Shown here: piece by piece, positions 22,394 to 37,937 of the stretch
How the letters are laid out: each line of letters begins with the position of its first letter
Numbering within the stretch: position 1 is the stretch's first letter
From: an uncultured Pelagibacteraceae bacterium
GTDB taxonomy: Bacteria > Pseudomonadota > Alphaproteobacteria > Pelagibacterales > Pelagibacteraceae
Assembly: GCA_902577285.1 (NCBI GenBank)
Contig: CACGYL010000007.1
Span: forward strand, 1 to 46,223
Length of the DNA stretch: 46,223 nucleotides
Direction: 5' to 3'
Notes under the pieces: model-generated
Told to the model about the DNA's origin: nothing
Databases searched by the model: none
Seen by the model: only the letters and a program-made list of their open reading frames with translations
Made by a program: the position numbers and the translations under genes

Positions 22394-22407
22394 TTATGTA
22401 ATCATTA

Positions 22408-22436
22408 TTGACACTAAATATAAATCTATGTTTAAT
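22408..22436 (+). promoter_or_regulatory. Strong sigma70 promoter of tctC
   Basis: TTGACA (22408-22413, perfect -35) and TTTAAT (22431-22436, 5/6 match to -10) are separated by exactly 17 bases. Transcription would begin near 22443, leaving a short leader with the ribosome site GAGGAAA before the ATG at 22471. The same -10 and spacing precede the other TRAP binding-protein gene at 33728. This also shows that the in-frame TTG at 22408 is not the gene start. Confidence 0.75.
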
Positions 22437-22470
22437 ATCAGGTATTATAATTATAATAAGAGAGGAAATA

Positions 22471-23451
22471 ATGAAACTAATTAAATCTTTAATTACAGTT
22501 TTATTCTCAACTTTACTTTTAATTTCAGCAACAACTTCAAGCTCAGTAGCAATGGATAAATTGCACTTTGTAATCGGTGGTGGTGCTGGAGGTGGTTGGG
22601 ATGGAACTGCTAGAGGAACAGGAGAAGCTTTAACAAAAGCTGGAATGTTAAAAAGTGCATCATTTGAAAATATGTCAGGTGGTGGAGGTGGAAAAGCTTT
22701 AGCTTACATGATCAATACAAAACCTGCTAATACAATTCTAGTTCAATCAACACCATTGGTCTTAAGATCAATCACACGACACAAAGGTTATGTAAAAGGC
22801 AATGGTACTTTATCTTACAAAGATGTTGTGCCAATTGCTGGAGTTATTGGTGATTATGGAGCTATTGCAGTAGCAAAAAGTTCACCTTTTAAAAACTTTA
22901 AAGATGTAGTTGATGCTTACAATAAAGATCCAAATTCAGTTAAGATGGCTGGTGGTTCTGTCAGAGGAAGCATGGACCATTTAATTGGCGCTTTAGCTTT
23001 TCAAGCAGCAGGAGCTGACCCGAATGCAGTTGCATATATACCATATGATGCTGGAGGAAAAGCATTAGCTGGACTTTTATCTGGGGAGACTCAAATTATA
23101 TCAACAGGCTTAGGTGAATTGATGGGTGCAAGAGACCAAGTAAGAATTATTGGTATTACTGCTCCTTCAAGAGTATCTGATGCTCCAGATGCACCGACAT
23201 TAAAAGAACAAGGATATGATGTACAATTCGTTAACTGGAGAGGTTTTTTTGGACCTCCAGGAATGAGCAATTCTGATAAATCAAAAATTGCTAAAATGTT
23301 AGGCGACGTACAAAAAACTCCTGAATGGGAAACTGTAAGAGCAAGAAATGCATGGGTAAATATTTATAACCCAGAAGGAAAGTTTGTTTCTTTCTTAGAA
23401 AAACAAACTGAAGAAATGACAGCTCTTATGAAAAAACTAGGAGTAATTTAA
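22471..23451 (+). CDS. tctC: Tripartite tricarboxylate transporter substrate-binding protein (TctC/Bug family)
   Basis: 326 residues from ATG 22471, chosen because GAGGAAA lies just upstream, a signal peptide starts there (cut near 'SSSVA|MDK'), and the upstream in-frame region is a promoter. 'FVIGGGAGGGWDGTARGTGEAL' and 'MSGGGGGKALAYM' are the glycine-rich ligand loops of the Bug family, and 'SVRGSMDHLIGALAFQAAG' follows the family pattern. It is the periplasmic receptor for an organic acid. An intrinsic terminator follows the stop and overlaps the start of tctB. Confidence 0.92.
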   Translation: MKLIKSLITVLFSTLLLISATTSSSVAMDKLHFVIGGGAGGGWDGTARGTGEALTKAGMLKSASFENMSGGGGGKALAYMINTKPANTILVQSTPLVLRSITRHKGYVKGNGTLSYKDVVPIAGVIGDYGAIAVAKSSPFKNFKDVVDAYNKDPNSVKMAGGSVRGSMDHLIGALAFQAAGADPNAVAYIPYDAGGKALAGLLSGETQIISTGLGELMGARDQVRIIGITAPSRVSDAPDAPTLKEQGYDVQFVNWRGFFGPPGMSNSDKSKIAKMLGDVQKTPEWETVRARNAWVNIYNPEGKFVSFLEKQTEEMTALMKKLGVI

Positions 23452-23471
23452 TCTTTAAGATTATTTAAAAT

Positions 23472-23519
23472 AGAGCAGTGAATATAAATACAACAAAAAT
23501 TATATCACTGCTCTTTTTT
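23472..23519 (+). terminator. Intrinsic terminator/attenuator overlapping the tctB start codon
   Basis: A perfect 10-bp stem (AGAGCAGTGA at 23472-23481 with TCACTGCTCT at 23505-23514) closes a 23-base loop and is followed by six T residues (23514-23519). The tctB GTG start (23478) lies inside the 5' arm, and codons 10-14 of tctB form the 3' arm and T-run. It should both lower read-through from tctC and mask the tctB start. Confidence 0.8.
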
Positions 23520-23948
23520 ATTTTCTCAGCATTCTATCTATACACGGCTTATCAAATTCAGGTTTTTGCATTTGATGAAAATGCAGCATTTAATGCTAGA
23601 ACATTTCCAATTTATTTAGGCTATGCAGGATTATTTTTTTCTGGGTTAAAACTTGTTCTACCTGAGCCTAACACCATAAAAGTAGACCATAAAAATCTAG
23701 AGTATAAAAAAACAGTAATACTTATAGTAATTGCAATTATTTATGGAGCTACAATTTTAAAAGTTGGATACTTTTTAACAACTTCTTTATTTTTGTTTTC
23801 GTCTTATTATTTTTTAGGTGAGAGAAGATGGGTCTTGATGTTTTTATTATCATTTCCCTTCGTGGCAGCTTTTATGTACCTTCTTCATGGTATTCTTGAT
23901 ATTTATTTAAGAGATCCATTTTTACAATCAATTGGAGTTATGGGATGA
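23478..23948 (+). CDS. tctB: Tripartite tricarboxylate transporter small membrane subunit (TctB family)
   Basis: 156 residues with four hydrophobic helices, the usual TctB layout. The GTG at 23478 is the only plausible start because the first helix begins at residue 8 and no other start codon follows in time. 'FDENAAFNARTFPIYLGYAGLFFSGLKL' is typical of the loop between the first two helices. No good ribosome site precedes the start, which lies in a terminator stem. It overlaps tctA by four bases (ATGA). Confidence 0.87.
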   Translation: MNINTTKIISLLFFIFSAFYLYTAYQIQVFAFDENAAFNARTFPIYLGYAGLFFSGLKLVLPEPNTIKVDHKNLEYKKTVILIVIAIIYGATILKVGYFLTTSLFLFSSYYFLGERRWVLMFLLSFPFVAAFMYLLHGILDIYLRDPFLQSIGVMG

Positions 23949-25450
23949 TCGAAGGAATTTTAATTGGATTAACCACAGCTCTTACACTCCAAAATATTTT
24001 AATGGTAATGGTAGGTTGTTTTTTTGGAACTATTATTGGAATGTTGCCTGGACTTGGTCCAATGACTGCCATTGCTTTAATGATACCAATTACCTATGGT
24101 TTTGATCCTGCTACAGGTTTAATTCTGATGGCTGGAGTTTATTATGGTGCTGTATTTGGTGGCTCGACTTCCTCAATTTTGCTTAACGCACCGGGTGTTC
24201 CAGGGACAGTTGCCACATCATTTGATGGCTACCCAATGGCACAACAAGGAAAGGCAGGTAAGGCTTTAGCAATTGCTGCTTGGAGTTCTTTTGCAGGAGG
24301 GACACTATCTGCAATTTATCTTTTATTTATGGCACCCAGTTTGTCTAAAGTAAGTTTGTCATTCAGATCGCCTGATTATTTCGCTTTAATGATTCTAGGT
24401 TTAACCGCTATTGCTGCTTTTTCTTCTAAAGGTCAATTTTTAAAAGCAATGATGATGGTAGTATTAGGTTTAATGTTAGCTTCAGTTGGTCAAGATAGTT
24501 TATCGGATATTACAAGATTTACATTTGACAATATGAACTTAACAGATGGAATTAGCTTTGTTCTTGTTGTAATGGCTACATTTGCAATGAGTGAAGCGCT
24601 TACAATTATTTTAAAAAGAAATGATCCAACTAGTGCTGCTAAACAAGTTTCATTGACAGAACTTGGTTCAATTAAAATCAATAAAGAAGAAAGATCAAAA
24701 ATGTACAAAACAATCCCAAGATCATCCATAATTGGTTTTTTAATTGGAGTATTGCCAGGCGCAGGTGCAACAATTGCATCTTTCTTAGCTTATGGAATGG
24801 AAAGAAATGTAGTTAATGATGAAGAAAAAGAAAAGTTTGGAAAAGGAAGTGTAAATGGTTTGTCAGCTCCTGAAACTGCAAATAATGCAGCGTGTTCTGG
24901 TTCATTTGTCCCCATGTTAACGCTAGGTATACCAGGAAGCGGAACTACCGCGGTTATGTTAGGTGCACTATTAGGTTTTGGAGTTCAGCCTGGACCAAGA
25001 TTGTATATGACAAATCCAGAAATTTTTTGGTCAATAATAATGTCAATGTATATAGGTATGGTTATATTATTGATTTTAAATCTTCCTTTAATTCCATATA
25101 TTGCAAGAATTCTTGCTGTCCCTAAAAATTACTTAATTCCTCTGATTTTATTTTTCTCAGTTACAGGAATTTATGTAATGTCTTTCAATAACTTTGATAT
25201 TTATTTAATGATTGGAATTGCAGTTGTTGCAACATTTCTAAGATTATATGATTTTCCTATGCCACCTTTGATACTTGCCTTTGTATTAGGAGGATTAATG
25301 GAAGAAAACTTGAGAAGATCTTTATTATTAAGCAATGGTTCTTGGGAATTTTTATGGGACAGAGCTTTAACCGCATGTATTTTACTAACTACAATTTTAA
25401 TTGTAATTTGGCACGTTTATAAAACTATGTTTAAAAAGACTAAAACTTAA
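23945..25450 (+). CDS. tctA: Tripartite tricarboxylate transporter large membrane subunit (TctA family)
   Basis: 501 residues, standard TctA length, with about a dozen hydrophobic helices. Key motif 'GTIIGMLPGLGPMTAIALMIP' occurs near residue 30, and its second copy 'GFLIGVLPGAGATIASFLAYG' near 262; 'FGGSTSSILLNAPGVPGTVATSFDGYPMAQQG' is another hallmark. It forms the cation-driven permease of the TctCBA system. The 3' end overlaps the convergent membrane protein gene by four bases. Confidence 0.95.
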   Translation: MIEGILIGLTTALTLQNILMVMVGCFFGTIIGMLPGLGPMTAIALMIPITYGFDPATGLILMAGVYYGAVFGGSTSSILLNAPGVPGTVATSFDGYPMAQQGKAGKALAIAAWSSFAGGTLSAIYLLFMAPSLSKVSLSFRSPDYFALMILGLTAIAAFSSKGQFLKAMMMVVLGLMLASVGQDSLSDITRFTFDNMNLTDGISFVLVVMATFAMSEALTIILKRNDPTSAAKQVSLTELGSIKINKEERSKMYKTIPRSSIIGFLIGVLPGAGATIASFLAYGMERNVVNDEEKEKFGKGSVNGLSAPETANNAACSGSFVPMLTLGIPGSGTTAVMLGALLGFGVQPGPRLYMTNPEIFWSIIMSMYIGMVILLILNLPLIPYIARILAVPKNYLIPLILFFSVTGIYVMSFNNFDIYLMIGIAVVATFLRLYDFPMPPLILAFVLGGLMEENLRRSLLLSNGSWEFLWDRALTACILLTTILIVIWHVYKTMFKKTKT

Positions 25451-25866
25451 GTAATATAAATTTTATCAGACAAACCGTAACAAAGTATAGCCATCATAAT
25501 TAAAAAGACTGTAGGCGCTATAATACCTTCATTTGTAACTTTTTCATTAAGACCTGTTTTATCAATTTTAAGCGAGTAGAAATTTGTTCCTAAAACACAT
25601 GCATGTATAATAAATATTAAATTAAAAAATGCCCAAGTACCTTCAACTCCATTTGGTCTTACAAACATTATATAAATAGCCATTATTACCCAACCAAGCA
25701 TTAGCGCTCCAACAAATCTAACCATTACAGCTGCACTATGATCTATACCAAATTTATCCATGAATTTCTTTGTTCCAACAATTGTTTGAAAACAATAGGC
25801 AGCTATCCCTATAAAATGTGCAAGAAATACAATTAAGTAGAAAATGTTATTAAATTTAGCAATCAT
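25447..25866 (-). CDS. Four-helix membrane protein of unknown function
   Basis: 139 residues with four hydrophobic segments at roughly 8-27, 47-68, 78-96 and 114-134. The loop between the first two contains 'GTKKFMDKFGIDHSAA'. I do not recognise a catalytic motif or a firm family. It lies nine bases downstream of the glycosyltransferase gene on the same strand, so the two are probably co-transcribed. Low-complexity membrane composition limits inference; a real gene is supported by full use of the space and a clear ATG start. Confidence 0.7.
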   Translation of the reverse strand: MIAKFNNIFYLIVFLAHFIGIAAYCFQTIVGTKKFMDKFGIDHSAAVMVRFVGALMLGWVIMAIYIMFVRPNGVEGTWAFFNLIFIIHACVLGTNFYSLKIDKTGLNEKVTNEGIIAPTVFLIMMAILCYGLSDKIYIT

Positions 25867-25875
25867 AAAACTATT

Positions 25876-26958
25876 TTATAAGATTCTTTTATATTTTTCA
25901 ATTGCCTTATCCCAAAGAAAGTTTGTAGAATTATTTTTAGCTTCTTTGCCGTATTCTAAATATTTATTTTCTCTAAAAAGAGTTTCTATACTTGAGTAAA
26001 TATCCTCTAATTTATTACCATCACATATCAAACCTGTTTTTTCATGTATAATTGCATCTGAAGCTCCTCCATCTTTTCCCCCAATTGATGGAACTCCATA
26101 TTGTGCAGCCTCAACATAAGCAATTCCAAAGCCTTCAACTGATTTTTTATAAATTACGGATGGCATTACAAAAATATTTGATTTTGCAACAAGGGCATTT
26201 TTTAAATCAGTTGGTATATCTTTTAAAAAAGTTACCTGATCTTCTAACTTTAATTCAACAACTAATTTTTTTAATTTTTCTTCCTCTTTTCCATACCCAA
26301 TACATGTATAGAAAATTTCTGGATAAACTTCTTTTAGGTTTCTAACAGCCATAATAACTTTTTCATGATTTTTTCTTTTGTCAAATCTTGAGACTGTTAT
26401 TAGTCTATTTTTCTTTCCTTTAAATATTTCCTCAGCCTCATCTAAGTATCTTTTTGGAACTTCAACAACTGGATCTACACCAGGATTAATAACAACTATT
26501 TTTTCTTCATCTACTCCAAGGTCTATAGCTAAGTTTTTTGTATAATTTGAATTTGCAACTACATGATCAACATTATTTAAAACTGATAAAACTTTCTTAT
26601 TTAATCCTGAGCCTTTAGGGTGATTTATTTCTTTTGAATGAATTAAACAGATTTTCTTTTTATTTGTTTTAATAAATTCTAAACTTTTCCAATGATCAGC
26701 AATTAAACACTCTACATTTTTATTATTTTCAAGATAATCATTAATTAAATAAGATTTTCTATATTTTCTAATTAGCTTCATTCCACTAACTCTTTCAATT
26801 GAAAATGAAACAGATTTATCAAATTCTTCGTGATTTTCATGGTAATCTGCAAAAACTTTTATAAGATTTATTTTTGCTAGAGATCTTGCCAATCCCCACA
26901 TGAGATTTTGCATACCTCCTAACTCTGGTGGAAAAGTTCTAGTAATTAGTAAATACAT
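25876..26958 (-). CDS. Glycosyltransferase family 4 (GT-B) protein
   Basis: 360 residues. The N-terminal 'RTFPPELGGMQNLMWGLARSL' and the C-terminal retaining-GT signature 'SVEGFGIAYVEAAQYGVPSIGGKDGGASDAI' (E-x7-E) define the family. 'TVSRFDKRKNHEKVI' is the standard nucleotide-sugar domain entry. It is cytosolic or peripheral to the inner membrane and transfers an activated sugar, presumably into a surface glycan or glycolipid. It follows the thioredoxin-like gene by six bases, in the same minus-strand transcript. Confidence 0.92.
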   Translation of the reverse strand: MYLLITRTFPPELGGMQNLMWGLARSLAKINLIKVFADYHENHEEFDKSVSFSIERVSGMKLIRKYRKSYLINDYLENNKNVECLIADHWKSLEFIKTNKKKICLIHSKEINHPKGSGLNKKVLSVLNNVDHVVANSNYTKNLAIDLGVDEEKIVVINPGVDPVVEVPKRYLDEAEEIFKGKKNRLITVSRFDKRKNHEKVIMAVRNLKEVYPEIFYTCIGYGKEEEKLKKLVVELKLEDQVTFLKDIPTDLKNALVAKSNIFVMPSVIYKKSVEGFGIAYVEAAQYGVPSIGGKDGGASDAIIHEKTGLICDGNKLEDIYSSIETLFRENKYLEYGKEAKNNSTNFLWDKAIEKYKRIL

Positions 26959-26964
26959 TATTTA

Positions 26965-27516
26965 TTAAAACCACTTAATACTGCAGCCCATACTAGGAAA
27001 CTGTTCGTTTGGACCTTTGTTAGATTTTGCAATCATTTTCATGGCTTTTTTAAGTTCACTGTCTCCATTTTCTTTAGGTTTTAAGTTTTGTAACTCTCTT
27101 ATTCTTCCTCTGTATTGAAGTTCAAGGTCTTTATTATATCCAAAAAAATCTGGAGTACAGACTGCACCATAAGTTTTTGCTACTTGTTGAGTTTCATCTA
27201 TTACATACGGAAAATTAAAATTATGATTTTTTGAAAATTTGATCATATTATCAAATGAGTCTTCTTTATATCTCTTTGGGTCATTTGACATTATTGCTAT
27301 AGATTTAATACCATCATTCTCTAAACTCTTACAGTCTTCGACAACATTTTTGATTACTGCTAAAACATAAGGACAGTGATTACAAATAAACATTATTAAT
27401 GTTCCATTTTCACCTTTTACATCATTCAATGAAATTATTTTATTGTCTATTGATTTAAGTTCAAAGTAATCAGCTTTTTTACCAAAGTCACAAATTGGTG
27501 TTTTTGTTAATGCCAT
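26965..27516 (-). CDS. Thioredoxin-fold (AhpC/TSA-like) redox protein
   Basis: 183 residues with a redoxin fold. The active site 'FICNHCPYV' gives a CxxC pair at Cys45/Cys48, preceded by 'NGTLIMFICNHCP', where thioredoxin-like domains have the beta strand before the redox helix. 'GAVCTPDFFGYNKDLELQYRGRI' near 125 is a family feature, with cis-Pro after Thr. It matches the thioredoxin-family proteins annotated next to AhpC/TSA domains. No signal peptide is seen, so it is cytosolic. It diverges from the gamma carbonic anhydrase gene over 20 bases. Confidence 0.87.
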   Translation of the reverse strand: MALTKTPICDFGKKADYFELKSIDNKIISLNDVKGENGTLIMFICNHCPYVLAVIKNVVEDCKSLENDGIKSIAIMSNDPKRYKEDSFDNMIKFSKNHNFNFPYVIDETQQVAKTYGAVCTPDFFGYNKDLELQYRGRIRELQNLKPKENGDSELKKAMKMIAKSNKGPNEQFPSMGCSIKWF

Positions 27517-27536
27517 GATAAAAGACTATATAATTT

Positions 27537-28049
27537 ATGTTTTACGATTTAAAAGATAAAAAACCAAAAAACCTTGGCGAAAATTGGGTAGCACCTAACG
27601 CTGTTATAATTGGAGACGTAACATTAGAAAAAAACTCTAGTGTCTGGTTTAATGCAACTCTTAGAGGTGATATTGAAAATATACACATTGGAGAAGGTTC
27701 AAATGTTCAAGATGGAAGTGTTTTACACACAGATCCAGGTTATCCATTAAAAATTGGAAAAAATGTAACCATTGGTCATATGGTTATGCTCCATGGATGC
27801 ACAATTGATGACAACTCTTTAATTGGGATTGGAGCAGTTGTTCTTAACAGAGCAAAAATTGGAAAGAATTGTATAATTGGTGCTAAATCATTGGTAACTG
27901 AAAGAAAAGAAATTCCTGATAATTCTTTAGTAATGGGATCACCCGGAAAAGTAATAAGGCAATGTACTGAAGACGAAATTGATGCAATAAAACAAAACGC
28001 AATTAGGTACCAAGAAAATTGGAAAAAATATTCAAAGTCTATATTTTAA
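27537..28049 (+). CDS. Gamma carbonic anhydrase-like hexapeptide-repeat protein
   Basis: 170 residues of left-handed beta-helix hexapeptide repeats ('APNAVIIGDVTL', 'IGKNVTIGHMVMLHGCTI', 'IGIGAVVLNRAKIG'). The three metal-site histidines of gamma carbonic anhydrases are in place: His64, His81 and His86. It is a probable trimer in the cytosol. Family members interconvert CO2 and bicarbonate or have lost activity (PaaY, CaiE, YrdA); activity is therefore uncertain. The 3' end overlaps the secreted-protein gene by one base (TAATG). Confidence 0.88.
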   Translation: MFYDLKDKKPKNLGENWVAPNAVIIGDVTLEKNSSVWFNATLRGDIENIHIGEGSNVQDGSVLHTDPGYPLKIGKNVTIGHMVMLHGCTIDDNSLIGIGAVVLNRAKIGKNCIIGAKSLVTERKEIPDNSLVMGSPGKVIRQCTEDEIDAIKQNAIRYQENWKKYSKSIF

Positions 28050-28627
28050 TGAAAAAACTTTTTTATAGTTTATTAATATTAGTTTTATTAACTCAATTCT
28101 CCCAAGCTTTTGAAAGATTTATACCTTTAGAGCTTTTCACAGGTGGAAAAATTAGAAATGATACAGTAATTAAATTTACAAAAGCTAATTTGGTATTTGG
28201 CGAAAAGAAAAAAAAGAAAATTATAGGTCCTGAAGATTGGCATCATCCAGAAACTGGAGAAAAAATAAAAGTATATAAAAGAACAAGAAAAGGGCAAAGT
28301 AGTCTCAAAACCCAGTTATTTACTGTAACCAACGATGGACAATGTATAGGAAGAATTTGGGATAGTAGACGTGGTGGTAGAATAATTGAAAATGGATGTA
28401 AATTTCCCTTGGGGGTTTGGAAACAAGGAGAAACTAGGTCATTCGTTGGATCTTCCGGAGGGAAACCTAGAAAAATTGAATTAACAATTTTAAAATTAGG
28501 AAAAAAACAAAATAGCAATCTTAAATTTAATTGGAAATTATATAATATGAAAAATGGAAAATTAATGGATGATAATGATTATACTTTTTCCCCAGGAAAG
28601 GCGATGGTAGGTTTAAATGAAAACTGA
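28049..28627 (+). CDS. Secreted protein of unknown function
   Basis: 192 residues from the ATG at 28049 (TAATG overlap with the gamma carbonic anhydrase gene); an in-frame TTG at 28019 would lie inside that gene and precede the signal peptide. The N-terminus is a signal peptide cut near 'FSQAF'. The mature part contains a Lys-rich stretch around residue 55 and two cysteines within 'GQCIGRIW' and 'IENGCKFPLG', about 20 residues apart, that could form a periplasmic disulfide. No known motif is recognised. Confidence 0.75.
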   Translation: MKKLFYSLLILVLLTQFSQAFERFIPLELFTGGKIRNDTVIKFTKANLVFGEKKKKKIIGPEDWHHPETGEKIKVYKRTRKGQSSLKTQLFTVTNDGQCIGRIWDSRRGGRIIENGCKFPLGVWKQGETRSFVGSSGGKPRKIELTILKLGKKQNSNLKFNWKLYNMKNGKLMDDNDYTFSPGKAMVGLNEN

Positions 28628-28831
28628 TTAGCTCAAAAGCAAGTCATTAACAGAATAAATAATTAATCCTATTATAATTATAAAAAATATAACAAAAGCT
28701 ATTTGTTCTCCTATTTTCTTTTTTATTTTAGTTTCACCTTTTTTAAATTTTCTAATTTGAAATATACCAAATCTCATTACAAGTAGACCTAATATTATCA
28801 AAGATAAATAAAGTATAAAATTATAAAGCAT
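28628..28831 (-). CDS. Small two-helix membrane protein
   Basis: 67 residues with two hydrophobic helices (about 4-21 and 43-63) joined by a strongly basic loop 'RKFKKGETKIKKK', giving a hairpin topology with the loop probably on the cytosolic side. It overlaps the stop of the beta carbonic anhydrase-like gene by 11 bases and ends one base from the convergent secreted-protein gene, so it fills the only free space. Size and shape recall HIG1-type or other twin-helix proteins, but I cannot assign it. Confidence 0.6.
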   Translation of the reverse strand: MLYNFILYLSLIILGLLVMRFGIFQIRKFKKGETKIKKKIGEQIAFVIFFIIIIGLIIYSVNDLLLS

Positions 28832-29225
28832 TTTTGACAGATAATATTTTAAATGAAACTTTAATTTTGGGAAATTTTTCCTTCAAAGTTTTCTTTAACT
28901 TATTAAATGATTTCTTATGTATTACGTTTTCAATTCTTGAATTAAAATTTTTATTGTTATTTACAATTTTAGCAGCTCCACAATCATTGTGATTTAATAC
29001 TATTAATTTATTAATTTTATGTAAATTTATTGAAGTTTCTAAATTTTCCCAGAATGTCGCATGCCATTTTTTGAATTTATTATTTGTTACACCAATTGAA
29101 CCACCTGCAATTGTAAAAGCGCTAAATTTTCCTGTAAGTTTTATATCTTTTAAATGTTGATGAACTGGTTTTTGAAACCTTGGATCCATACAGGAAAGAA
29201 CCATTGCTTCATATTTTTTTGACAT
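28821..29225 (-). CDS. Beta carbonic anhydrase-like protein, short form
   Basis: 134 residues, well below the usual 190-220. Zinc-site residues of beta carbonic anhydrases are present: Cys12-x-Asp14-x-Arg16 ('SCMDPRF'), then His79 and Cys82 ('LNHNDCGAA'), with normal spacing between the halves. 'FTIAGGSIGV' fits the segment that follows the first motif. The C-terminal helices of the classical enzyme are missing. It may be a compact active carbonic anhydrase or a degenerate zinc protein. It lies three bases after the flavoprotein gene. Confidence 0.8.
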   Translation of the reverse strand: MSKKYEAMVLSCMDPRFQKPVHQHLKDIKLTGKFSAFTIAGGSIGVTNNKFKKWHATFWENLETSINLHKINKLIVLNHNDCGAAKIVNNNKNFNSRIENVIHKKSFNKLKKTLKEKFPKIKVSFKILSVKNAL

Positions 29226-29228
29226 AAT

Positions 29229-29834
29229 TTAAGGAACTAACCAATTTTCTATATTTTTTTCAAGATCAATCCTGGCTCTCCTATGACCTTTCGCAGCTAA
29301 ATATAGCCATTCAATATTTTTTATTTTGCACTGAATTACAGTAAAATTTTTGTAACCTTCTTCACTTTGTTCCATTGTAAAGCCAGATTTTTCAATATCA
29401 TCATTTAAACCAGATCCAGGTTCATCAATTTCTGTTCCTGGTCCATTATTTACTAAATAACATTTACGACTTACATGAGCTGTTTTTAACCAAGATTGTT
29501 CTGTGATTTCATTATTATGGTTGATGGTGCAATTTACTTTTACTCTTAGTTGAATTTTTTCCTCTTTATCATAAAAAATTAAGGCGGCGTTGTTATTTTT
29601 TTTCAATTTCGGAATTTTGTCAGATCTAATATCACTATGAAATTGAAGTATATTATTTGATTGATCTGATTTTCTTAGAACCACAATTCTTCCATCAAAA
29701 TCTGAATGATCGCCGCAAACAAAAACTGGAATTCTAAAAGGAGATGATCTATTCGTTACAGCATCATCAAGCATTGACCATATTTTTTTCTTTATTTCAG
29801 AAAAGTCCTCATAATATGGGACGGCATTTGACAT
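29229..29834 (-). CDS. PNPOx-like FMN-binding protein
   Basis: About 201 residues from the ATG at 29834, four bases after the stop of the preceding dehydrogenase gene; an upstream in-frame TTG at 29864 would overlap that gene. The split-barrel flavin fold of pyridoxamine 5'-phosphate oxidase-like proteins is suggested by 'GRIVVLRKSD', 'LQFHSDIRSDKIPKLKKNNNAALIFYD' and 'IEWLYLAAKGHRRARID'. The last resembles the Ala/Gly-His-Arg-Arg-Ala segment near the end of PdxH-like enzymes. The substrate is unknown; true PdxH is possible but the central region is atypical. Confidence 0.8.
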   Translation of the reverse strand: MSNAVPYYEDFSEIKKKIWSMLDDAVTNRSSPFRIPVFVCGDHSDFDGRIVVLRKSDQSNNILQFHSDIRSDKIPKLKKNNNAALIFYDKEEKIQLRVKVNCTINHNNEITEQSWLKTAHVSRKCYLVNNGPGTEIDEPGSGLNDDIEKSGFTMEQSEEGYKNFTVIQCKIKNIEWLYLAAKGHRRARIDLEKNIENWLVP

Positions 29835-29838
29835 TGGA

Positions 29839-30714
29839 TTACTTCTTTTTCTTGAGTCTAGCAATTAAACTAGAGCTATCCCATCGATTACCACCCATCT
29901 TTTGAACATCGGCGTAATACTCATCAACTATTTCAGTAATCGGGACTGGTGAACCATTTCTTTTTGCTTCCTCAATTACAATCTTCAAATCTTTTCTCAT
30001 CCAATCTACTGCAAAACCGTAATCAAATTTATCTTCAACCATAGTTTTATATCTATTTTCCATTTGCCAAGATTGAGCCGCGCCTTTAGATATTGTTTCC
30101 ATTACTTTATCAATATCTAAACCAGCATTTATTCCAAAATTGATAGCTTCTGATAGACCTTGAACAACACCTGCAATGCACATTTGGTTCATCATTTTTG
30201 TAAGTTGACCACTTCCTGATGGACCAATTAATTTTACTTTTTTACTATAGCAATCAATTACTGGTTCAGCTTTTTTAAAAACCTCTTCATCACCTCCAAC
30301 CATAACCGTTAGAATTCCACCTTCAGCACCTGATTGACCTCCAGAAATCGGTGCATCTAAAAATGCAAATCCTTTTTCTTTCGCTTTATTATATAGTTCT
30401 CTCGATACTTCTGCAGATACAGTTGAATTATCTACGTAGATTGAACCCTCCTTAGCACTGTGAAATAATCCGTTTTCACCTAAAGTAACTTGTTTCAAAT
30501 CATCATCGTTACCCACACAAGTAAAAATAAAATCAGCGCCTTCCACAGCCTCTTTAGGTGTTGAAGCCATTTTACCTTTATATTCAGTAATCCATTTTTC
30601 AGCTTTAGTAGTTGTTCTATTAAAAACAGTTACATTGTGCCCAGCTTTTGATATATAACCAGCCATCGGATAACCCATTACCCCGAGACCTATGAAAGCA
30701 ACATTACAAGTCAT
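29839..30714 (-). CDS. 3-Hydroxyisobutyrate dehydrogenase-family oxidoreductase
   Basis: 291 residues, normal for the beta-hydroxyacid dehydrogenase family. NAD(P) motif GLGVMG is at residues 9-14, 'FLDAPISGGQSGAEGGILTVMVGG' is the substrate-binding signature, and 'GQLTKMMNQ' has the catalytic Lys. It oxidises 3-hydroxyisobutyrate or reduces tartronate semialdehyde or related compounds; the substrate cannot be chosen from sequence. It leads a four-gene minus-strand operon. Its start is only 11 bases from the divergent MFS start. Confidence 0.92.
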   Translation of the reverse strand: MTCNVAFIGLGVMGYPMAGYISKAGHNVTVFNRTTTKAEKWITEYKGKMASTPKEAVEGADFIFTCVGNDDDLKQVTLGENGLFHSAKEGSIYVDNSTVSAEVSRELYNKAKEKGFAFLDAPISGGQSGAEGGILTVMVGGDEEVFKKAEPVIDCYSKKVKLIGPSGSGQLTKMMNQMCIAGVVQGLSEAINFGINAGLDIDKVMETISKGAAQSWQMENRYKTMVEDKFDYGFAVDWMRKDLKIVIEEAKRNGSPVPITEIVDEYYADVQKMGGNRWDSSSLIARLKKKK

Positions 30715-30725
30715 AAAATATTTAT

Positions 30726-31934
30726 ATGTTTAAAAATTTAAGTTTAAAAGTAATTATATTTGGATTTATTTTTACATTTTTTTCATGTTTTGGACAGAGT
30801 TTTTTTATAGGATTATTCAATTCAAGCATCAGAGAAACACTTTCTATTACACATGGACAATTTGGCACGATTTATGCTTCAGCTACTCTATTTAGTAGTT
30901 TACTCTTAATATGGATCGGAAAAAAAATTGATGATGTAAATGTACTTAAATTTGCGATTTTTGTTACTTTACTTTTATCATTTTCTTCTTTTTTCTTTTC
31001 CAAAACATCATCAGTAGCTTTTCTGTTTGTCTCAATTTTTTTAATGAGGTTTTCTGGACAAGGATTAATGTCTCATACAGCTTCAACTACCATTTCAAGA
31101 TACTTTACAAAATCTAGAGGTAAAGCGTTAAGTATTATTTGGTTTGGTTTATCTTCTGCAGAATTCATAATGCCTGTATTAATCGTTTATCTTTTAACTC
31201 TAATTGTTTGGCAAGATCTATGGGTAATCTTTTCTTTAATAGTTTTAATTTGTCTGCCGTTAGCATCTTATATTTTAGTTAAAGAAGTCAAATTAGATAC
31301 TAGAGAAGGTAGTCAAAACAAAATTTTAAAAGAAGAAAATATAAAAAACTGGAAAAGAATAGAAGTCCTTGGAGATTATAGATTTTATATTGTCTCATTA
31401 AACATGTTGGCAATGCCCTGGATAGCTACAGGAGTATTTGTATATCAATCATTTGTCACTAATTCGAAAGGGTGGGGTGAATATACAATTGCGCAATCTT
31501 TTATGTCTTACTCGATTTTTTCTGTAATTACTTTAATTGTTGCTGGTTATTTGATTGATAAGTTTACAAGTAGAAAATTACTAATCTATATGAATATTCC
31601 ACTATTCTTAGGAACTTTAATCATTATATACTTTGATGCTCCACAAACTGCTTTTTTATTCCTTGGATTAGTAGGAATATCAAACGGTCTAGCTAACTTA
31701 TTAGGATCATCAACATGGGCAGAAATTTATGGAGTAAAATATATTGGATCTATTAAAGCTTTGACTACTGCTTTAATGGTATTTGCAACTGCTTTTGGTA
31801 CAGCATTATTTGGTTTTTTTATAGATGCTGGATTTTCAATTGAAAAAATAGCATTTATTGCAGCAATTGCAATTGCATGCTCTATAGCCTTACTTTTTAC
31901 TATTAGAAAAAAATTAAATCCAGTTTATCTCTAA
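30726..31934 (+). CDS. Major facilitator superfamily transporter
   Basis: 402 residues with twelve hydrophobic helices. A motif A-like loop 'WIGKKIDDVNVLKF' follows the second helix, 'MRFSGQGLMSHTASTTISRYFTKSRGKALSIIW' is the helix 4-5 region, and the second copy of motif A is 'GYLIDKFTSRKLL'. The layout resembles oxalate/formate antiporter-like or nitrate-porter relatives, but the substrate is unknown. Its promoter must overlap the divergent dehydrogenase gene. Confidence 0.88.
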   Translation: MFKNLSLKVIIFGFIFTFFSCFGQSFFIGLFNSSIRETLSITHGQFGTIYASATLFSSLLLIWIGKKIDDVNVLKFAIFVTLLLSFSSFFFSKTSSVAFLFVSIFLMRFSGQGLMSHTASTTISRYFTKSRGKALSIIWFGLSSAEFIMPVLIVYLLTLIVWQDLWVIFSLIVLICLPLASYILVKEVKLDTREGSQNKILKEENIKNWKRIEVLGDYRFYIVSLNMLAMPWIATGVFVYQSFVTNSKGWGEYTIAQSFMSYSIFSVITLIVAGYLIDKFTSRKLLIYMNIPLFLGTLIIIYFDAPQTAFLFLGLVGISNGLANLLGSSTWAEIYGVKYIGSIKALTTALMVFATAFGTALFGFFIDAGFSIEKIAFIAAIAIACSIALLFTIRKKLNPVYL

Positions 31935-31950
31935 TACTGCTTGATTTTTT

Positions 31951-31956
31951 TATAAT
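31951..31956 (+). promoter_or_regulatory. Candidate -10 element upstream of rpoZ
   Basis: A perfect TATAAT lies 20 bases before the rpoZ ATG. No convincing -35 hexamer is found at the right distance, so this is only suggestive. A possible ribosome site (GAGG at 31958) follows, but it is unusually far from the ATG. Confidence 0.3.
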
Positions 31957-31976
31957 CGAGGTGTATCTAACCCACC

Positions 31977-32495
31977 ATGGCTAGAGTTACAGTAGAAGAT
32001 TGTATTGATAAAGTTAAAAGTCCTTATGAGTTAGTGCTGGTTGCAAAGGAGAGAGCAACGCAACTTAATTCAGGATTAGAACCCACTTTAGATAGGGATA
32101 ATGACAAAAACACTGTAATAGCATTAAGAGAAATTGCTGAAGAAACAATAAAAGTCCCTGATTTGACAGATGCTGCAGTTTATAAATTAAGAAAACATGT
32201 TGAACAAATAGATGATGCATCAGACGACGAGGATGATATTGGTGATGATTTTGAAAACCTTTATAAAGGCGAAATTTCAAAGAGTGGTGTGCCAATTCTT
32301 CCATCAAAGAGAGCTAGAAAAATTCCAGAAAAAATTCAAGTTTCTAAAGATGATTTAGCTGAGTTACAAAATACACCTGAACAACCATCATCAGATCCTG
32401 TTGAGGACATACAAGAGGAAGAAACCGATGTTTCATTAGATGAAATGAAAGATCAAGAAGAAACTGTATCTGACGAAACAGAAAACCAAGAATAA
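31977..32495 (+). CDS. rpoZ: RNA polymerase omega subunit with long acidic tail
   Basis: 172 residues, nearly twice the E. coli omega. The conserved core is residues 1 to about 60: '[13 protein letters not shown]', then the omega-typical helix '[13 protein letters not shown]', and '[14 protein letters not shown]'. It helps fold and stabilise the beta-prime subunit and has a role in ppGpp response. From about residue 75 the protein is mostly acidic ('[15 protein letters not shown]'), ending in an Asp/Glu/Ser-rich tail, presumably disordered. Alphaproteobacterial omega proteins often have extensions, but the function of this one is unknown. Confidence 0.93.
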
Positions 32496-32496
32496 A

Positions 32497-33639
32497 TTAA
32501 TTAAATTCCTTTATTATTTTCTCCCTGTGCTCATCTAAATCGGGAATATTACCTCTACTATTTTCATCTTTATATGTAGACATTTTAATTGGGTTTCCTG
32601 CAGATTTAAATTCACCAATAATTTTATGATATGATTTTACAATCATATTTCTTTCTTTAATTTGTGGATTTTCTACAGCTTGTTTTATATTAAAAATTGG
32701 CCCACATGGAATTTTCAATGCTTCCATTTCTTTAACCCAATCGTTCGTAGATTTTGAACTTAATTTTTTTTCAAAAATTTCTTTTAATTGATCCATATTT
32801 TCACATCTTAATGAATTAGATATAAATCTTTCATCATTTGCAGTTTCAGGAATTTTTAGTACATCACAAAGTTTTGCAAAAAGTTTATCATTTCCTGCAG
32901 CAATGATTATGTAGCTATCTTTTGTTTTAAAAGCTTCAAATGGAGCAATTGATGGATGTCTTGAACCCATTGGTCCTGGAATTTCATCTTTGGAAAGATA
33001 TCTTGCAATTGCATTTTCTAAAATTGCTATTTGGCAATCTAACATTGAAACATCTATAAAAGCTCCTTTTCCAGTTTTTTGTCTATCGTATAAAGCCGCA
33101 TTTATTCCAATTGCTGTAAACAGACCTGCTGTGATATCACCAATAGATGTTCCAACTCTTGTTGGTTCAGAATTAGGATGACCAGTTACACTCATCAAAC
33201 CCCCCATGCCTTGAACCACCATGTCATATGCAGGTAATTCTTTTAAAGGTCCAGTTTGGCCAAAGCCTGACGCCGAAGCATAAATTAATTTAGGATATTT
33301 TTTACTTACATCTTTCCAGCCAAAACCCCACTTTTCTAATGTACCAGGTTTAAAGTTTTCTACTAAAATATCCGCCTTAGATAAAATTTTATCAAAAATT
33401 TTCTTATCCTCATTATTTTTTAAATTTAAAGCGATACTTTCTTTTCCTCTGTTTAATGACATAAAGTATGCAGAATAATCTTTAACAAAAGGTCCAAATT
33501 TTCGAGAGTCATCACCTGTTTCAGGTGCTTCAATTTTTATAACTCTTGCACCCAAATCTGAGAGTATCATAGTGCAATAGGGTCCTACTAAAACCCTAGT
33601 TAAATCAACAACTAATAAATTTTTTAGTGGTCCATCCAT
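32497..33639 (-). CDS. CaiB/BaiF (class III) CoA-transferase
   Basis: 380 residues, usual size. 'LTRVLVGPYCTMILSDLGARVIKIE' near the start, 'NLKPGTLEKWGFGWKDVSKKYPKLIY'-like middle (reads 'NFKPGTLEKWG'), and the catalytic Asp in 'VSMLDCQIA' are class III features. It moves CoA between carboxylates. It diverges from a TRAP transporter whose last neighbour is malonyl-CoA decarboxylase, and no malonyl-CoA synthetase is present, so activation of malonate by this enzyme is a plausible inference. Other acids such as succinate/itaconate-like substrates remain possible. Confidence 0.92.
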   Translation of the reverse strand: MDGPLKNLLVVDLTRVLVGPYCTMILSDLGARVIKIEAPETGDDSRKFGPFVKDYSAYFMSLNRGKESIALNLKNNEDKKIFDKILSKADILVENFKPGTLEKWGFGWKDVSKKYPKLIYASASGFGQTGPLKELPAYDMVVQGMGGLMSVTGHPNSEPTRVGTSIGDITAGLFTAIGINAALYDRQKTGKGAFIDVSMLDCQIAILENAIARYLSKDEIPGPMGSRHPSIAPFEAFKTKDSYIIIAAGNDKLFAKLCDVLKIPETANDERFISNSLRCENMDQLKEIFEKKLSSKSTNDWVKEMEALKIPCGPIFNIKQAVENPQIKERNMIVKSYHKIIGEFKSAGNPIKMSTYKDENSRGNIPDLDEHREKIIKEFN

Positions 33640-33665
33640 AATAAAATATACGACATTTCCTTATA

Positions 33666-33694
33666 TTGACTCTTAACCATAAGTTCAATTTAAT
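33666..33694 (+). promoter_or_regulatory. Strong sigma70 promoter of the TRAP/malonate operon
   Basis: TTGACT (33666-33671) and TTTAAT (33689-33694) are separated by exactly 17 bases; each matches consensus at 5/6 positions. The start of transcription would fall near 33701, about 27 bases before the ATG. The leader holds a strong ribosome site, AGAGGGG, at 33716. The tctC promoter at 22408 has the same arrangement and the same -10. Confidence 0.75.
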
Positions 33695-33727
33695 ATGTTT
33701 ATTAAATTAATTTAAAGAGGGGAAAAC

Positions 33728-34738
33728 ATGTTAAAAAAAATAAGTTTTTATTTTACAACATTATTTTTAGCTTTCTCATTAATTGGATCAGCATACGCTG
33801 TGACACTAAAAGCAAGTCACCAATGGCCTGGAACACCTAGAGCTGATGGTTCTTATGATCCAAGACATGAAATGGTTCAAATAATTGCAGATGAAGTTAA
33901 AAAAGCAGGAGTAGATTTAGATATTAGAATTTATCCAGCAAAATCATTATATAAACCCAAAGAGCAGTGGAAACCAATGACAACTGGTCAGTTGGATATT
34001 TCAGCATTTCCATTAGCGTACGCATCAAAATTCCACCCAGAATTTGATGCAACATTGATGCCAGGAACAGTTAAAAATCATGACCATGCACTAAGATTTA
34101 ATAAAGGTCCAATGATGACTGAAATTAAGAGAATTATAAATGATGCTGGTGTTGTTGTTCTATCTGATGCTTGGCTTGGTGGCGGTTTTGCATCTAAGTC
34201 AAAATGTATTAAAAATCCATCAGATGCTAAAGGACAAGTAATGAGAGCAGCTGGTAAAGCTTTTAACCAAATGTTAGAGGCTGCTGGCGCTGGTATTCAA
34301 AGTATGCCTTCATCAGAAATTTATACTGGATTGCAAACTGGAGTATTAACAGGTGCAAATACTAGTTCAGGAAGTTTTGTTAGTTACAAAATTTATGAGC
34401 AAGTAACATGCGCAACACCTCCAGGAAAATTCGGATTGTGGTTTATGTATGAGCCAATTTTGATGTCAAAAATGAGCTTTGATAAATTAAATTCAAAACA
34501 ACAAGATGTTTTAATGAAAGCTGGTAAAGTTGCTGAAAAATATATGACTGCGCAAGTTGAAAATCTAGATAAAAAATTTGAGGACGCTTATAAAGCAGCA
34601 GGAGTAAAATTAGTATATATGGATGCAAATGACCATGCGGCTTGGGTTGAGATTGCTAAACAATCTTCACACAAAGCATTTGCTGAAAAAGTTCCAGGTG
34701 GCGATAAGCTAATGGAAATGGCTTTAGCAGTTAAATAA
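33728..34738 (+). CDS. dctP: TRAP transporter substrate-binding protein (DctP family), probably malonate-type
   Basis: 336 residues with a signal peptide cut near 'GSAYA|VT' (about residue 24). 'GQVMRAAGKAFNQML' has the family Arg expected to bind a carboxylate, and 'SEIYTGLQTGVLTGANT' matches the DctP domain. Two Cys ('SKCIKNP', 'EQVTCATPP') could form a disulfide. The operon order dctP-dctQ-dctM-malonyl-CoA decarboxylase parallels the malonate TRAP (MatPQM) operons of rhizobia, so malonate is the inferred ligand. A strong terminator follows. Confidence 0.92.
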   Translation: MLKKISFYFTTLFLAFSLIGSAYAVTLKASHQWPGTPRADGSYDPRHEMVQIIADEVKKAGVDLDIRIYPAKSLYKPKEQWKPMTTGQLDISAFPLAYASKFHPEFDATLMPGTVKNHDHALRFNKGPMMTEIKRIINDAGVVVLSDAWLGGGFASKSKCIKNPSDAKGQVMRAAGKAFNQMLEAAGAGIQSMPSSEIYTGLQTGVLTGANTSSGSFVSYKIYEQVTCATPPGKFGLWFMYEPILMSKMSFDKLNSKQQDVLMKAGKVAEKYMTAQVENLDKKFEDAYKAAGVKLVYMDANDHAAWVEIAKQSSHKAFAEKVPGGDKLMEMALAVK

Positions 34739-34752
34739 AAAGATATATAAAG

Positions 34753-34788
34753 AACCCCTATTTAAAATATTAAATAGGGGTTTTTTTT
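34753..34788 (+). terminator. Intrinsic terminator abutting the dctQ start codon
   Basis: A perfect 12-bp stem (34753-34764 with 34771-34782, GC core CCCC/GGGG) is closed by a 6-base loop and is followed by eight T residues (34781-34788). The dctQ ATG begins at the very next base. The 3' arm carries AGGGG (34776-34780), eight bases from the ATG, so the terminator arm may double as the ribosome site. Confidence 0.88.
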
Positions 34789-35283
34789 ATGAAACAAAAA
34801 TATTTAAAATTCTGTAATTATAGTTCACAAGCATGTGGAGCTTTTGCTGTTCTAGCTCTGCTTTTATCAATATTGGTAATTGTTGAGTTGGTTTTTGAAA
34901 GATATTTTTTTCAAAGAGCAATCACATGGCAAACAGAGCTTGTGACGATGCTTTTAGTTGCTTCAACTTTTATAGGAAGTGCTTATGTTTTAAGCGAAAA
35001 AGCGCATGTGAGTATGGAGTGGATTTATGATTTTTTATCAAAGAAAAACATTCTTAGACTTAAAATTTTCACATCATTAATAAGTTTATTGTTTTTTTTA
35101 ATCTTATTCTATTTTGGGTATTTAATGGTTGAGGAAGCTTTTACAAAAAATTATTCTACAGGAACTGTTTGGGATCCTCCTTTATGGATACCTTATTCAT
35201 CAATGATGATAGGAGCAGCATTAATGATCCTTCAATATATTGCCGAAATAATTAAACTTATCGACGAAGAAGGTGGTTACTAA
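34789..35283 (+). CDS. dctQ: TRAP transporter small membrane subunit (DctQ family)
   Basis: 164 residues with four hydrophobic helices. 'VIVELVFERYFFQRAITWQTELVTMLLVASTFIGSAYVL' is the conserved DctQ core, with the 'W..El' that follows the second helix. The start codon directly follows the T-run of an intrinsic terminator. It overlaps dctM by one base (TAATG). It forms the membrane complex with the next gene. Confidence 0.9.
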   Translation: MKQKYLKFCNYSSQACGAFAVLALLLSILVIVELVFERYFFQRAITWQTELVTMLLVASTFIGSAYVLSEKAHVSMEWIYDFLSKKNILRLKIFTSLISLLFFLILFYFGYLMVEEAFTKNYSTGTVWDPPLWIPYSSMMIGAALMILQYIAEIIKLIDEEGGY

Positions 35284-36614
35284 TGGATCCGTTAATAATA
35301 GCAATAATCGTTGCGGTTTTCACTTTAGTAGTATTATTTTCTGGAATACCAATTGCTTTTGGTTTGAGCTTTGTCTCAATAACATTACTAGTTGCATTTG
35401 AGGGTTTTCAAATGTTAGATGTTTTTGCAGAAACATTTTATGCTGGACTAAACTCTTTTGTTTTACTTTCAATACCAATGTTTATTTTAATGGGAATGGC
35501 GGTCGCCAATTCTCCAGCGGGAAAAGATCTATATACAGGATTAGATAGATGGCTTTGGAGAGTACCAGGTGGATTAGTAATTTCTAATATAGGTGCTTGC
35601 TCAATATTTGCTGCATTAAGTGGATCAAGTCCTGCAACATGTGCAGCAATTGGAACTATGGGAATACCTGAGATGAGAAAAAGAGGGTATTCTGATCAAA
35701 TAGCAACAGGAACAATAGCAGCTGGTGGTACGCTAGGAGTTTTAATTCCTCCCAGCATTGTTTTGATTGTTTATGGAATTGCTACAGGAACATCAATTGG
35801 AAGATTATTCTTAAGTGGCTTGATACCTGGATTTATGTTAGCAGGAATGTTTGCTATATGGGCTCTCATACATAGTTATTTTATTGATAAAGATTCAGCA
35901 AAAGCTTTAAAGAACAGAACACCTCCAACTTTTAAAGAGAAAATTGAAGTCTTGCCAAGAATTTTACCCTTCCTAGCAATTATAGCTGGTGTTCTTTATG
36001 TTTTATATGGTGGAGTAGCTACACCTTCAGAAGCATCTGGTGTTGGAGCTTTTTTAGTTTTCGTATTAATCGCTGTTGTTTACAAAATTTATCAACCAAA
36101 GAAAATCTGGAACATTGTTAAAGTATCTATGAAAGAAAGTGTGATGATAATGTTTATCATCGCTGCATCTTATCTTTTTGCATTCACATTATCACAGCTT
36201 TATGTAACTCAATCATTAGCACAAAGTATGGTGGAGTTAAGTTCAAATAAATGGGTTGTATTTATTTTAATTAATATTTTTCTTTTAATTGCAGGTTTCT
36301 TTTTACCACCAGTGGCAGTTATTGTGATGACTTCAGCGATATTGCTCCCAGTTATAACTACTTTGGGCTTCGACCCTTATTGGTTTGCAATTGTATTTAC
36401 AATAAATATGGAAATCGGTCTTATTACCCCACCTGTTGGATTAAATCTTTATATTATTAAAGGTATTACACCTGATGTAAGTTTGTCAGAAATATTAAAG
36501 GGATCTATACCATTTATGATAATTATGGCTCTAGCTATATTAATTTTGTGTATTTTTCCTGAAATAGTTACTTGGTTGCCAGATAAAATAATGGGTAAAA
36601 GTTTAGGTTTTTAA
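35283..36614 (+). CDS. dctM: TRAP transporter large membrane subunit (DctM family)
   Basis: 443 residues with about a dozen hydrophobic helices. 'ALSGSSPATCAAIGTMGIPEMRKRGYSDQIATGTIAAGGTLGVLIPPSIVLIVYG' (shown only as a pattern of GSS, GIPEM, GTLG and PPS) is the central signature and 'MEIGLITPPVGLNLYIIKGI' the C-terminal one. It is the sodium-coupled channel of the TRAP system. The malonyl-CoA decarboxylase gene starts 15 bases later. Confidence 0.94.
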   Translation: MDPLIIAIIVAVFTLVVLFSGIPIAFGLSFVSITLLVAFEGFQMLDVFAETFYAGLNSFVLLSIPMFILMGMAVANSPAGKDLYTGLDRWLWRVPGGLVISNIGACSIFAALSGSSPATCAAIGTMGIPEMRKRGYSDQIATGTIAAGGTLGVLIPPSIVLIVYGIATGTSIGRLFLSGLIPGFMLAGMFAIWALIHSYFIDKDSAKALKNRTPPTFKEKIEVLPRILPFLAIIAGVLYVLYGGVATPSEASGVGAFLVFVLIAVVYKIYQPKKIWNIVKVSMKESVMIMFIIAASYLFAFTLSQLYVTQSLAQSMVELSSNKWVVFILINIFLLIAGFFLPPVAVIVMTSAILLPVITTLGFDPYWFAIVFTINMEIGLITPPVGLNLYIIKGITPDVSLSEILKGSIPFMIIMALAILILCIFPEIVTWLPDKIMGKSLGF

Positions 36615-36629
36615 TATATAAAAAACACC

Positions 36630-37937
36630 ATGCTAAATATAAAAAGAATTTTTGAAACCATTGCTGATGCTGGACAAAAGATTTTAGAAAAAAAATCTCT
36701 TAAAAGTATTACAAAAAAGAGAGATTTGATCGATCTTTGTGATGACTTGTTATCTACAAAAGGAGCAGCATTTGGAATTACTTTGGCAAGAGATATATTA
36801 TTTAGATATCAAAATTTATCTATAGAGGAAAAAAATAAATTTTTAATTCAGGTTAATCAAAAATATAAACCAGATCCATTAAAAATTGATGAGGCAATTA
36901 AAAAGTACAGTGATGATCAAGATGATTATTCAATTTTGAACTTATCAAGAGTAGCGTCTGGAATTAGAAAAGAGTTGTTTGTAAGATTGAATATGGCTCC
37001 AAACGGAACCTCAGAGATTGTATCACTTAGAGAAGATCTACTTAGATTGATGAAAGAAAATCCAGAATTAAAAAGTTTAGATTATGATTTGATAGATATA
37101 TTTAAAAATTGGTTCAATCCAGGTTTTTTAAAACTAAGAAAAATTACTTGGGATACAAAAGCTGCAATCTTAGAAAAATTATTGAAATATGAAAAAGTTC
37201 ATTCTATGAAAGATATGAATGAGTTAAAAAGAAGACTTGGTAAAGACAGAAGATTTTTTGCATATTTTCACCCTGCATTAGAAGACGAACCAATTATTTT
37301 TGTAGAAATCGCATTAACAAAAGGTTTAAGCCAATCGATACAAGAATTAACTAGACCTTCAGAAGAAAAAATTAAAGATTACGATACTGCAACATTTTAT
37401 TCAATTAGCAACTGTCAAGAAGGGCTTTCAAGAGTAACACTTGGAAACTTTCTTATAAAAAGAGTTGTTTATGAACTTCAAGAAGAGCTACCAGATGTGA
37501 AATATTTTGGAACTTTGTCACCAATGGTAGGTTTTGCTGATTGGTTTAAAAATATGCAAAGCTCTGAAGCAGCCGAAATACTTGGAGAGGCAAACAAAAA
37601 TAGTTTAGACTTTTTAAAGTCAAATGATTTAAAAATAGGTGATAAGAGAATTGCAGATAGCAAAGTATTAATTAGCAAATTAGCTTTAAATTATTTAGCA
37701 AAACAAAAAAATGATTTTGGATTTCCAATTAATGATGTATGTAGATTTCACCTAAAAAATGGAGCTGATATAGATGACATAGCTATTAATGCTAATGTTT
37801 CTGAAGTTGGATTTAAGAGGTCTTTTGGTGTGATGGTTAATTATCGATATGAATTAGCAAAAATTGAGAAGAACCATCAAGAATATGTAAACGAAAAAAA
37901 GGTAAATATTTCAAATAAAGTTAAAAAATATGTCTAA
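36630..37937 (+). CDS. Malonyl-CoA decarboxylase
   Basis: 435 residues, standard size for the MCD family. It converts malonyl-CoA to acetyl-CoA and CO2. An N-terminal helical domain is followed by the GNAT-like catalytic domain with 'FYSISNCQEGLSRVTLGNFLIKRVV', the catalytic Ser in 'FGTLSPMVGF', the catalytic His in 'CRFHLKNGA', and the family end signature 'FGVMVNYRYEL'. It follows the TRAP genes closely, which supports malonate catabolism. Its 3' end overlaps dusA by eight bases. Confidence 0.94.
   Translation: MLNIKRIFETIADAGQKILEKKSLKSITKKRDLIDLCDDLLSTKGAAFGITLARDILFRYQNLSIEEKNKFLIQVNQKYKPDPLKIDEAIKKYSDDQDDYSILNLSRVASGIRKELFVRLNMAPNGTSEIVSLREDLLRLMKENPELKSLDYDLIDIFKNWFNPGFLKLRKITWDTKAAILEKLLKYEKVHSMKDMNELKRRLGKDRRFFAYFHPALEDEPIIFVEIALTKGLSQSIQELTRPSEEKIKDYDTATFYSISNCQEGLSRVTLGNFLIKRVVYELQEELPDVKYFGTLSPMVGFADWFKNMQSSEAAEILGEANKNSLDFLKSNDLKIGDKRIADSKVLISKLALNYLAKQKNDFGFPINDVCRFHLKNGADIDDIAINANVSEVGFKRSFGVMVNYRYELAKIEKNHQEYVNEKKVNISNKVKKYV

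Follow-up and report, generated by a model that had tools for sequence, protein, structure and literature searches.

The DNA analysed here, referred to as the window, is a stretch of 46,223 nt that represents one contig (C7) of a 933-kb genome, 58% complete, of the SAR11 lineage. Its forward strand carries a TRAP transporter operon, dctP-dctQ-dctM, at positions 33728-36614, with a malonyl-CoA decarboxylase gene downstream of it. The solute-binding protein is encoded by dctP (33728-34738; NCBIfam TRAP_S1, PF03480), the small permease by dctQ (34789-35283; PF04290) and the large permease by dctM (35283-36614; TIGR00786). A gene on the opposite strand (32497-33639) is divergent from dctP. The region 32497-37937 groups a CoA-transferase, the TRAP operon and the malonyl-CoA decarboxylase, and this grouping suggests a malonate-type substrate. 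An alternative start for dctQ was weighed and dropped; the ATG at 34789 is kept because most orthologues align from residue 1.

The intergenic region between dctP and dctQ contains a hairpin. Its arms, AACCCCTATTTAA (34753-34765) and TTAAATAGGGGTT (34770-34782), form a perfect stem of 13 bp, closed by a loop of 4 nt at 34766-34769. A tract of eight Ts (34781-34788), two of which are also counted in the stem, abuts the dctQ start codon, and the ATG begins at 34789 with no gap. The sequence-only reading of this DNA had described a perfect stem, eight Ts and an ungapped ATG, and all of these are present, although the stem is 13 bp and not the 12 bp that it gave. Four G-C pairs adjoin the U8, and the element has the stable stem and the direct U-tract that an intrinsic (Rho-independent) terminator requires. 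The folded RNA has an energy of -21.6 kcal/mol (z -6.4), which was equalled by none of 200 dinucleotide shuffles, and the terminator score is +39.6. The fold displays 17 pairs, since AAAG (34749-34752) extends the stem by pairing with some of the Ts.

Attenuators usually act through a terminator placed ahead of a start codon, and a conditional attenuator or riboswitch, with an antiterminator that decides on read-through, should also be considered. This is very improbable at dctP-dctQ, as only 14 nt separate the dctP stop codon at 34738 from the stem, and an Rfam scan of the window matches nothing but a tRNA. An internal promoter in the conserved block TATATAAAGA (34744-34753) was also rejected: no good -35 sequence is seen upstream by eye, there is none on the plus strand among the scan sites that rank above the 28 weakest, and the block is missing in more distant orthologues.

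To follow the element in related genomes, dctP and dctQ homologs were collected. Of 201 genomes of the genus, 101 have a dctQ relative, and from the 430 dctP loci found in named genomes 80 were retained. Altogether 166 loci were given for the reading of junctions (L001-L116, L238-L253 and L318-L351), and 160 of these are readable; loci L002-L006 are other TRAP operons and L341 is unreadable. By inspection, a hairpin is found in all 160 junctions, which amount to 86 distinct sequences, and the latter is the better count because some places are represented more than once among the loci. One locus, L249, does not have the CCCC/GGGG anchor and displays its own GCCC/GGGC hairpin instead.

Base pairs were counted in 83 distinct sequences, with L350 and L351 left out (dctQ identity below 60%). 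The loop is variable, whereas in the stem a change in one arm is matched by a compensatory change in the other (A-T/G-C in 71 and 11 sequences, T-A/C-G in 49 and 9, A-T/T-A in 76 and 7). The five inner stem positions are paired in 405 of 415 cells, compared with 155 or 243 after a one-base shift of one arm. The AAAG positions at 34749-34752 are paired in 76-81 of the 83 sequences. The T-run is also conserved, with a length of 6-9 in 111 of 111 close dctP-dctQ junctions.

AT-rich DNA yields many weak stems, and a simple terminator scan of positions 15001-35000 showed no excess over shuffled sequences (6 sites vs 7.9 +/- 2.8), both of which might point to a hairpin that arose by chance or from base composition. 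However, the conservation and covariation refute such an artefact, and the absence of an equal fold among the 200 shuffles and the enrichment over other junctions described below argue against it as well, so that its probability is negligible. The scan gave the dctP-dctQ stem on the minus strand only, probably because the extended stem absorbs the Ts. A bidirectional terminator as the main role was rejected, as the opposite-strand gene 32497-33639 diverges from dctP.

Beyond the genus, a close dctP is found in 40 of 117 genomes of the same order, six of them outside the genus. In g2 (L348, L349) the hairpin carries GCAGGGGTAT, followed by Ts. In g4, as judged by eye, L350 keeps the T-run with an ATG 9 nt beyond the stem, and in L351 the next ATG is 24 nt beyond the stem. 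In g3 (L352, L353) a different sequence makes up the hairpin, which has no T-run and, by eye, is 9 nt upstream of an ATG. The spacing of AGGGG is kept in neither of the genera g3 and g4, and the hairpin is still present. Thus the predicted hairpin outlives both the T-run and the AGGGG spacing in deeper relatives. In two other loci, L117 and L118, the DctP hairpin is followed by seven to nine As, not Ts, directly before the dctQ ATG.

Hairpins are also associated with other binding-protein genes of the window. Between an SBP_bac_3 gene (16192-17019) and its permease (ATG at 17064) there is a hairpin at 17033-17057 on the plus strand, which has a z of -6.3, no T-run and a terminator score of -14.9. 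This permease was found in 155 of 201 genomes. The hairpin is present in the 30 close loci fetched and, by eye, in 7 more distant ones, with stems that differ by paired changes; a U-tract was not found in the close set of 30 loci, nor was a ribosome site found at the permease start.

The second junction, between tctC and tctB, displays a hairpin followed by six Ts (23472-23519, T-run at 23514-23519, plus strand), with a z of -6.7 and a terminator score of +23.4. It encloses the GTG start codon of tctB (23478), which lies in the 5′ arm, while the 3′ arm extends through codons 8-13 and the T6 forms codons 13-14. The T-run is found in all 30 close sequences and in 6 of 7 distant ones, being broken in L356. 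In 37 sequences the synonymous difference of tctB is 0.071 in codons 2-14 vs 0.330 in codons 31-156, and the former is the lowest of 143 windows of codons. Part of this constraint may be ordinary for gene starts, because milder dips are found in dctQ (0.286 vs 0.398) and hisQ (0.323 vs 0.426). The terminator-like hairpin that overlaps the beginning of tctB, from the start codon to codon 14, is shared by loci L258-L287 and L354-L360. In another TctC/TctB type (L167, L168, L170), a different hairpin lies within the first codons of the next open reading frame.

The sequence-only reading had listed the hairpins at 17033 and 23472 as comparable to that of dctP-dctQ. Both are real, but they are not of the same kind: one is devoid of a T-run and the other encloses a GTG start, so that a terminator combined with a hidden ribosome site does not hold as a general arrangement. 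A further hairpin (9697-9722, plus strand; L138) follows the other dctP gene of the window (8671-9684). The gene downstream of this dctP is of the glyoxalase type and not a permease; thus the hairpin goes with the binding-protein gene and not with the junction as such. When 49 gene ends of the window are ranked by hairpin, the four recognised binding-protein genes take ranks 2-5, and rank 1 overlaps a tRNA gene.

The 3′ arm of the dctP-dctQ stem contains AGGGG (34776-34780, plus strand), eight bases 5′ of the dctQ ATG as the earlier reading had it, and this is a plausible ribosome site for dctQ. The sampled DNA did not contain the 16S end, and with a presumed anti-SD tail the computed duplex of AGGGG has a fair energy of -5.9 kcal/mol, vs -8.2 for dctP and -8.0 for dctM. 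In 111 of 111 junctions the motif is base-paired and its GGGG lies 7-10 nt from the ATG (8 nt in 73 of them). In the five junctions with a six-T run, three extra bases hold the distance at nine. It should be noted that the Shine-Dalgarno signal of SAR11 start regions is weak, with 17-18% at or below -4 kcal/mol vs 5-10% in shuffled sequences, and therefore the hiding of a ribosome site may matter little.

The constant spacing and the compensating offset of the six-T junctions are what would be expected if the element were chiefly a translational gate, where the stem hides AGGGG and blocks initiation of dctQ and the T-run is a mere spacer. Several findings argue against this, and it is considered quite unlikely. 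The duplex computation found no comparable ribosome site at the hisQ and tctB starts, at several other DctP/DctQ junctions tens of bases separate the hairpin from the start codon, and the g3 and g4 relatives do not keep the spacing. Thus the ribosome site inside the stem, which had been proposed from the letters, is plausible at dctQ but is not general.

Alternatively, the hairpin may terminate little or not at all and may mainly serve, once a polycistronic transcript has been cleaved, to shield the binding-protein mRNA from exonucleases at its 3′ end, as do the REP sequences of malE-malF. In favor of this, the hairpin is retained where the T-run is lost, and hairpins devoid of a U-tract are conserved at the SBP_bac_3/permease junction and in dctP-dctQ of g3 (L352, L353). 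The T-runs, however, do not fit: a pure stabiliser would need none, and that of dctP-dctQ is kept at 6-9 in every one of the close junctions, while that of tctB is kept in 30 of 30 close and 6 of 7 distant sequences under synonymous constraint. Protection as the main role is therefore unlikely. Conversely, termination cannot be the sole role, because the 17033 family, L117/L118, L352 and L353 have hairpins without a U-tract.

The occurrence of such hairpins was surveyed over the SAR11 genome G155 (785 kb). Open reading frames were called, the 75 bases past each stop codon were folded, and a fold of -14 kcal/mol or better was taken as strong. Folding energy was used as the measure, as exact-stem finding misses L220 (a 14-nt loop) and L219 (a mismatch). 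A transporter gene comes directly after eleven recognised binding-protein genes (five DctP, four SBP_bac_3, one OpuAC and one NMT1), and these junctions were compared with 99 others on the same strand whose gaps measure 25-130 bases. A strong fold is present at 10 of the 11 binding-protein/transporter junctions vs 9 of the 99 others (Fisher p 2e-8, where, as with all p-values here, orthologous loci are treated as independent, though they are not). The eleventh junction, that of the SBP_bac_3 gene L226:7052 with a permease next, folds at -13.8 kcal/mol, and with a cut-off of -12 the counts are 11 of 11 vs 11 of 99. Since the OpuAC and NMT1 genes were recognised through their hairpins, the count for DctP and SBP_bac_3 only is also given, 8 of 9 vs 11 of 101 (p 1.5e-6). 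As the family listing covers 25 of 169 families, a gene of another binding-protein family that has no hairpin could be missed; among 18 signal-peptide-like or hairpin-bearing G155 proteins examined in Pfam, no transporter-linked binding protein beyond L226:7052 was detected. Convergent gene ends of G155 reach the -14 kcal/mol level in 15 of 222.

Two other G155 loci display hairpins of this type. A bacteriorhodopsin-like (proteorhodopsin) gene, L203:14937-16109, is followed by a hairpin that is among the strongest and carries a T-run, and a ferredoxin-like gene comes next. A molybdopterin oxidoreductase gene, L218:8969-10611, is followed by a hairpin that overlaps the start of the next open reading frame, a small secreted cytochrome-like gene whose first codons contain the T-run.

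Eight further genomes, including that of the window, gave a strong hairpin at 45 of 51 binding-protein junctions vs 10 of 151 other gene ends of those loci, or 1 of 42 when the controls were matched for gap. With repeats removed, this set comprises 30 of the 45 DctP matches and every match of the other three families. Two of the ten hairpin-bearing controls, L131 and L169, resemble binding-protein junctions that the open-reading-frame rule overlooked, and were kept as controls. The six misses (L136, L137, L143 and L154-L156) fall into two operon types that do not have a strong hairpin, a DctP type (L136, L137, L143) and an SBP_bac_3 type (L154-L157). These hairpin-less types are exceptions that could show the purpose of the hairpin.

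Overall, the pattern is found in SAR11 after DctP, SBP_bac_3, TctC, Peripla_BP_6, OpuAC and NMT1 genes, and the terminator score is positive in 21 of 29 DctP, 11 of 19 SBP_bac_3, 8 of 8 TctC and 14 of 23 Peripla_BP_6 loci. Outside of SAR11, a z of -3 or lower was found at DctP in 2 of 15 co-directional junctions of other Alphaproteobacteria (from 30 loci, best-scoring gene per genome) vs 22 of 27 in SAR11, a difference that is only suggestive because the sample is small and GC-rich. The enrichment of stems at these junctions in related genomes, on which the earlier reading depended, is thus present. Its proposal of a general SAR11 design holds for a hairpin after binding-protein genes; the ribosome site in the stem and the T-run vary. 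Across SAR11 the predicted hairpin is the constant feature, and the U-tract, the putative termination and the overlap with the start site are operon-specific.

The function we favor for the dctP-dctQ element, and consider probable, is that of an internal intrinsic terminator that would set the binding protein above the permease and cap the dctP mRNA. RNA polymerase copying dctP would meet the hairpin and U8 just past the stop codon. If termination is efficient, most transcripts would end there, leaving a dctP mRNA capped, and presumably stabilised, by a stable 3′ hairpin, and a read-through minority would carry dctQM. In the read-through RNA the stem would hold AGGGG near the AUG, and this repression would allow dctQ to be translated only after the stem opens.

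A broader proposal is offered tentatively and is somewhat doubtful at present. In SAR11, strong hairpin terminators after binding-protein genes would be far more common per gene than at convergent gene ends, and genome streamlining may have pressed them into permease start codons and even into coding sequence, so that one overlapping element could set both the amount of permease mRNA and the frequency of its translation. In tctB the start codon is part of the 5′ arm and the T-run doubles as Phe codons under synonymous constraint.

SAR11 cells devote much of their protein to binding proteins and have few regulators. A hard-wired hairpin after most binding-protein genes would let a streamlined genome fix the ratio of binding protein to permease without extra promoters. 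It would also provide a rule for SAR11 metatranscriptomes, where a fall in coverage past such a gene would be an intrinsic feature of the operon. With tctB, one can test how a single stretch of DNA serves as terminator, start site and coding sequence.

Stem loops such as the REP sequences of malE-malF act as stabilisers between binding-protein and permease genes. The SAR11 hairpins are similar to REP in their position after the binding-protein gene and in a presumed differential expression within the operon. They differ in that no repeated sequence family is evident, the stems differ between operons, and dctP-dctQ has a T-run. Earlier work on dctP-dctQ of Rhodobacter reportedly exists. No report of such hairpins in SAR11 was found in the open-access, as distinct from the subscription, literature.

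Terminators under 15 nt from start codons, three of them annotated as sequestrators of the ribosome binding site, are described in excerpts of PMC2965389. The dctP-dctQ element is similar in the closeness of a terminator to a start codon; unlike the attenuators of those excerpts, it follows a binding-protein gene within an operon and has no known antiterminator. The rhtB element of Pelagibacter (Meyer et al. 2009; PMC2704228, in part) is likewise a SAR11 hairpin, of which about half of the examples are followed by 6-9 U, but it is reported beside rhtB and neighbouring genes and not at binding-protein/permease junctions.

The closest similarity is to elements of cellulolytic Clostridia, where internal intrinsic terminators follow the SBP genes of ABC importer operons (Wu et al. 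2022; PMC9045158, here from excerpts). That work gives 191 putative stem-loops after SBP genes, with termination efficiencies of 20.7-96.1% for those tested and over 90%, the highest class, for two with more than five U, and predicts at least 15 such elements in E. coli. As in that class, a single stem-loop lies between the binding-protein and translocator genes, the tails are U-rich or U-poor, and long stems sometimes pair with the U-tract. The dctP-dctQ element, a stem-loop that likewise follows an SBP gene within a transporter operon, fits with its -21.6 kcal/mol and U8 into the reported range of -10 to -38 and the Type I tail of more than five U. The terms "ribosome binding" and "start codon" gave no matches in a word search of the PMC9045158 text. 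Going by those excerpts, the SAR11 elements differ in that they are also found in TRAP and TTT operons and that the putative terminator abuts or contains the next start codon. The principle is thus already known from the Clostridia ABC operons. What looks new is its spread over TRAP, TTT and ABC operons of one streamlined lineage, and its overlap with start codons and coding sequence.
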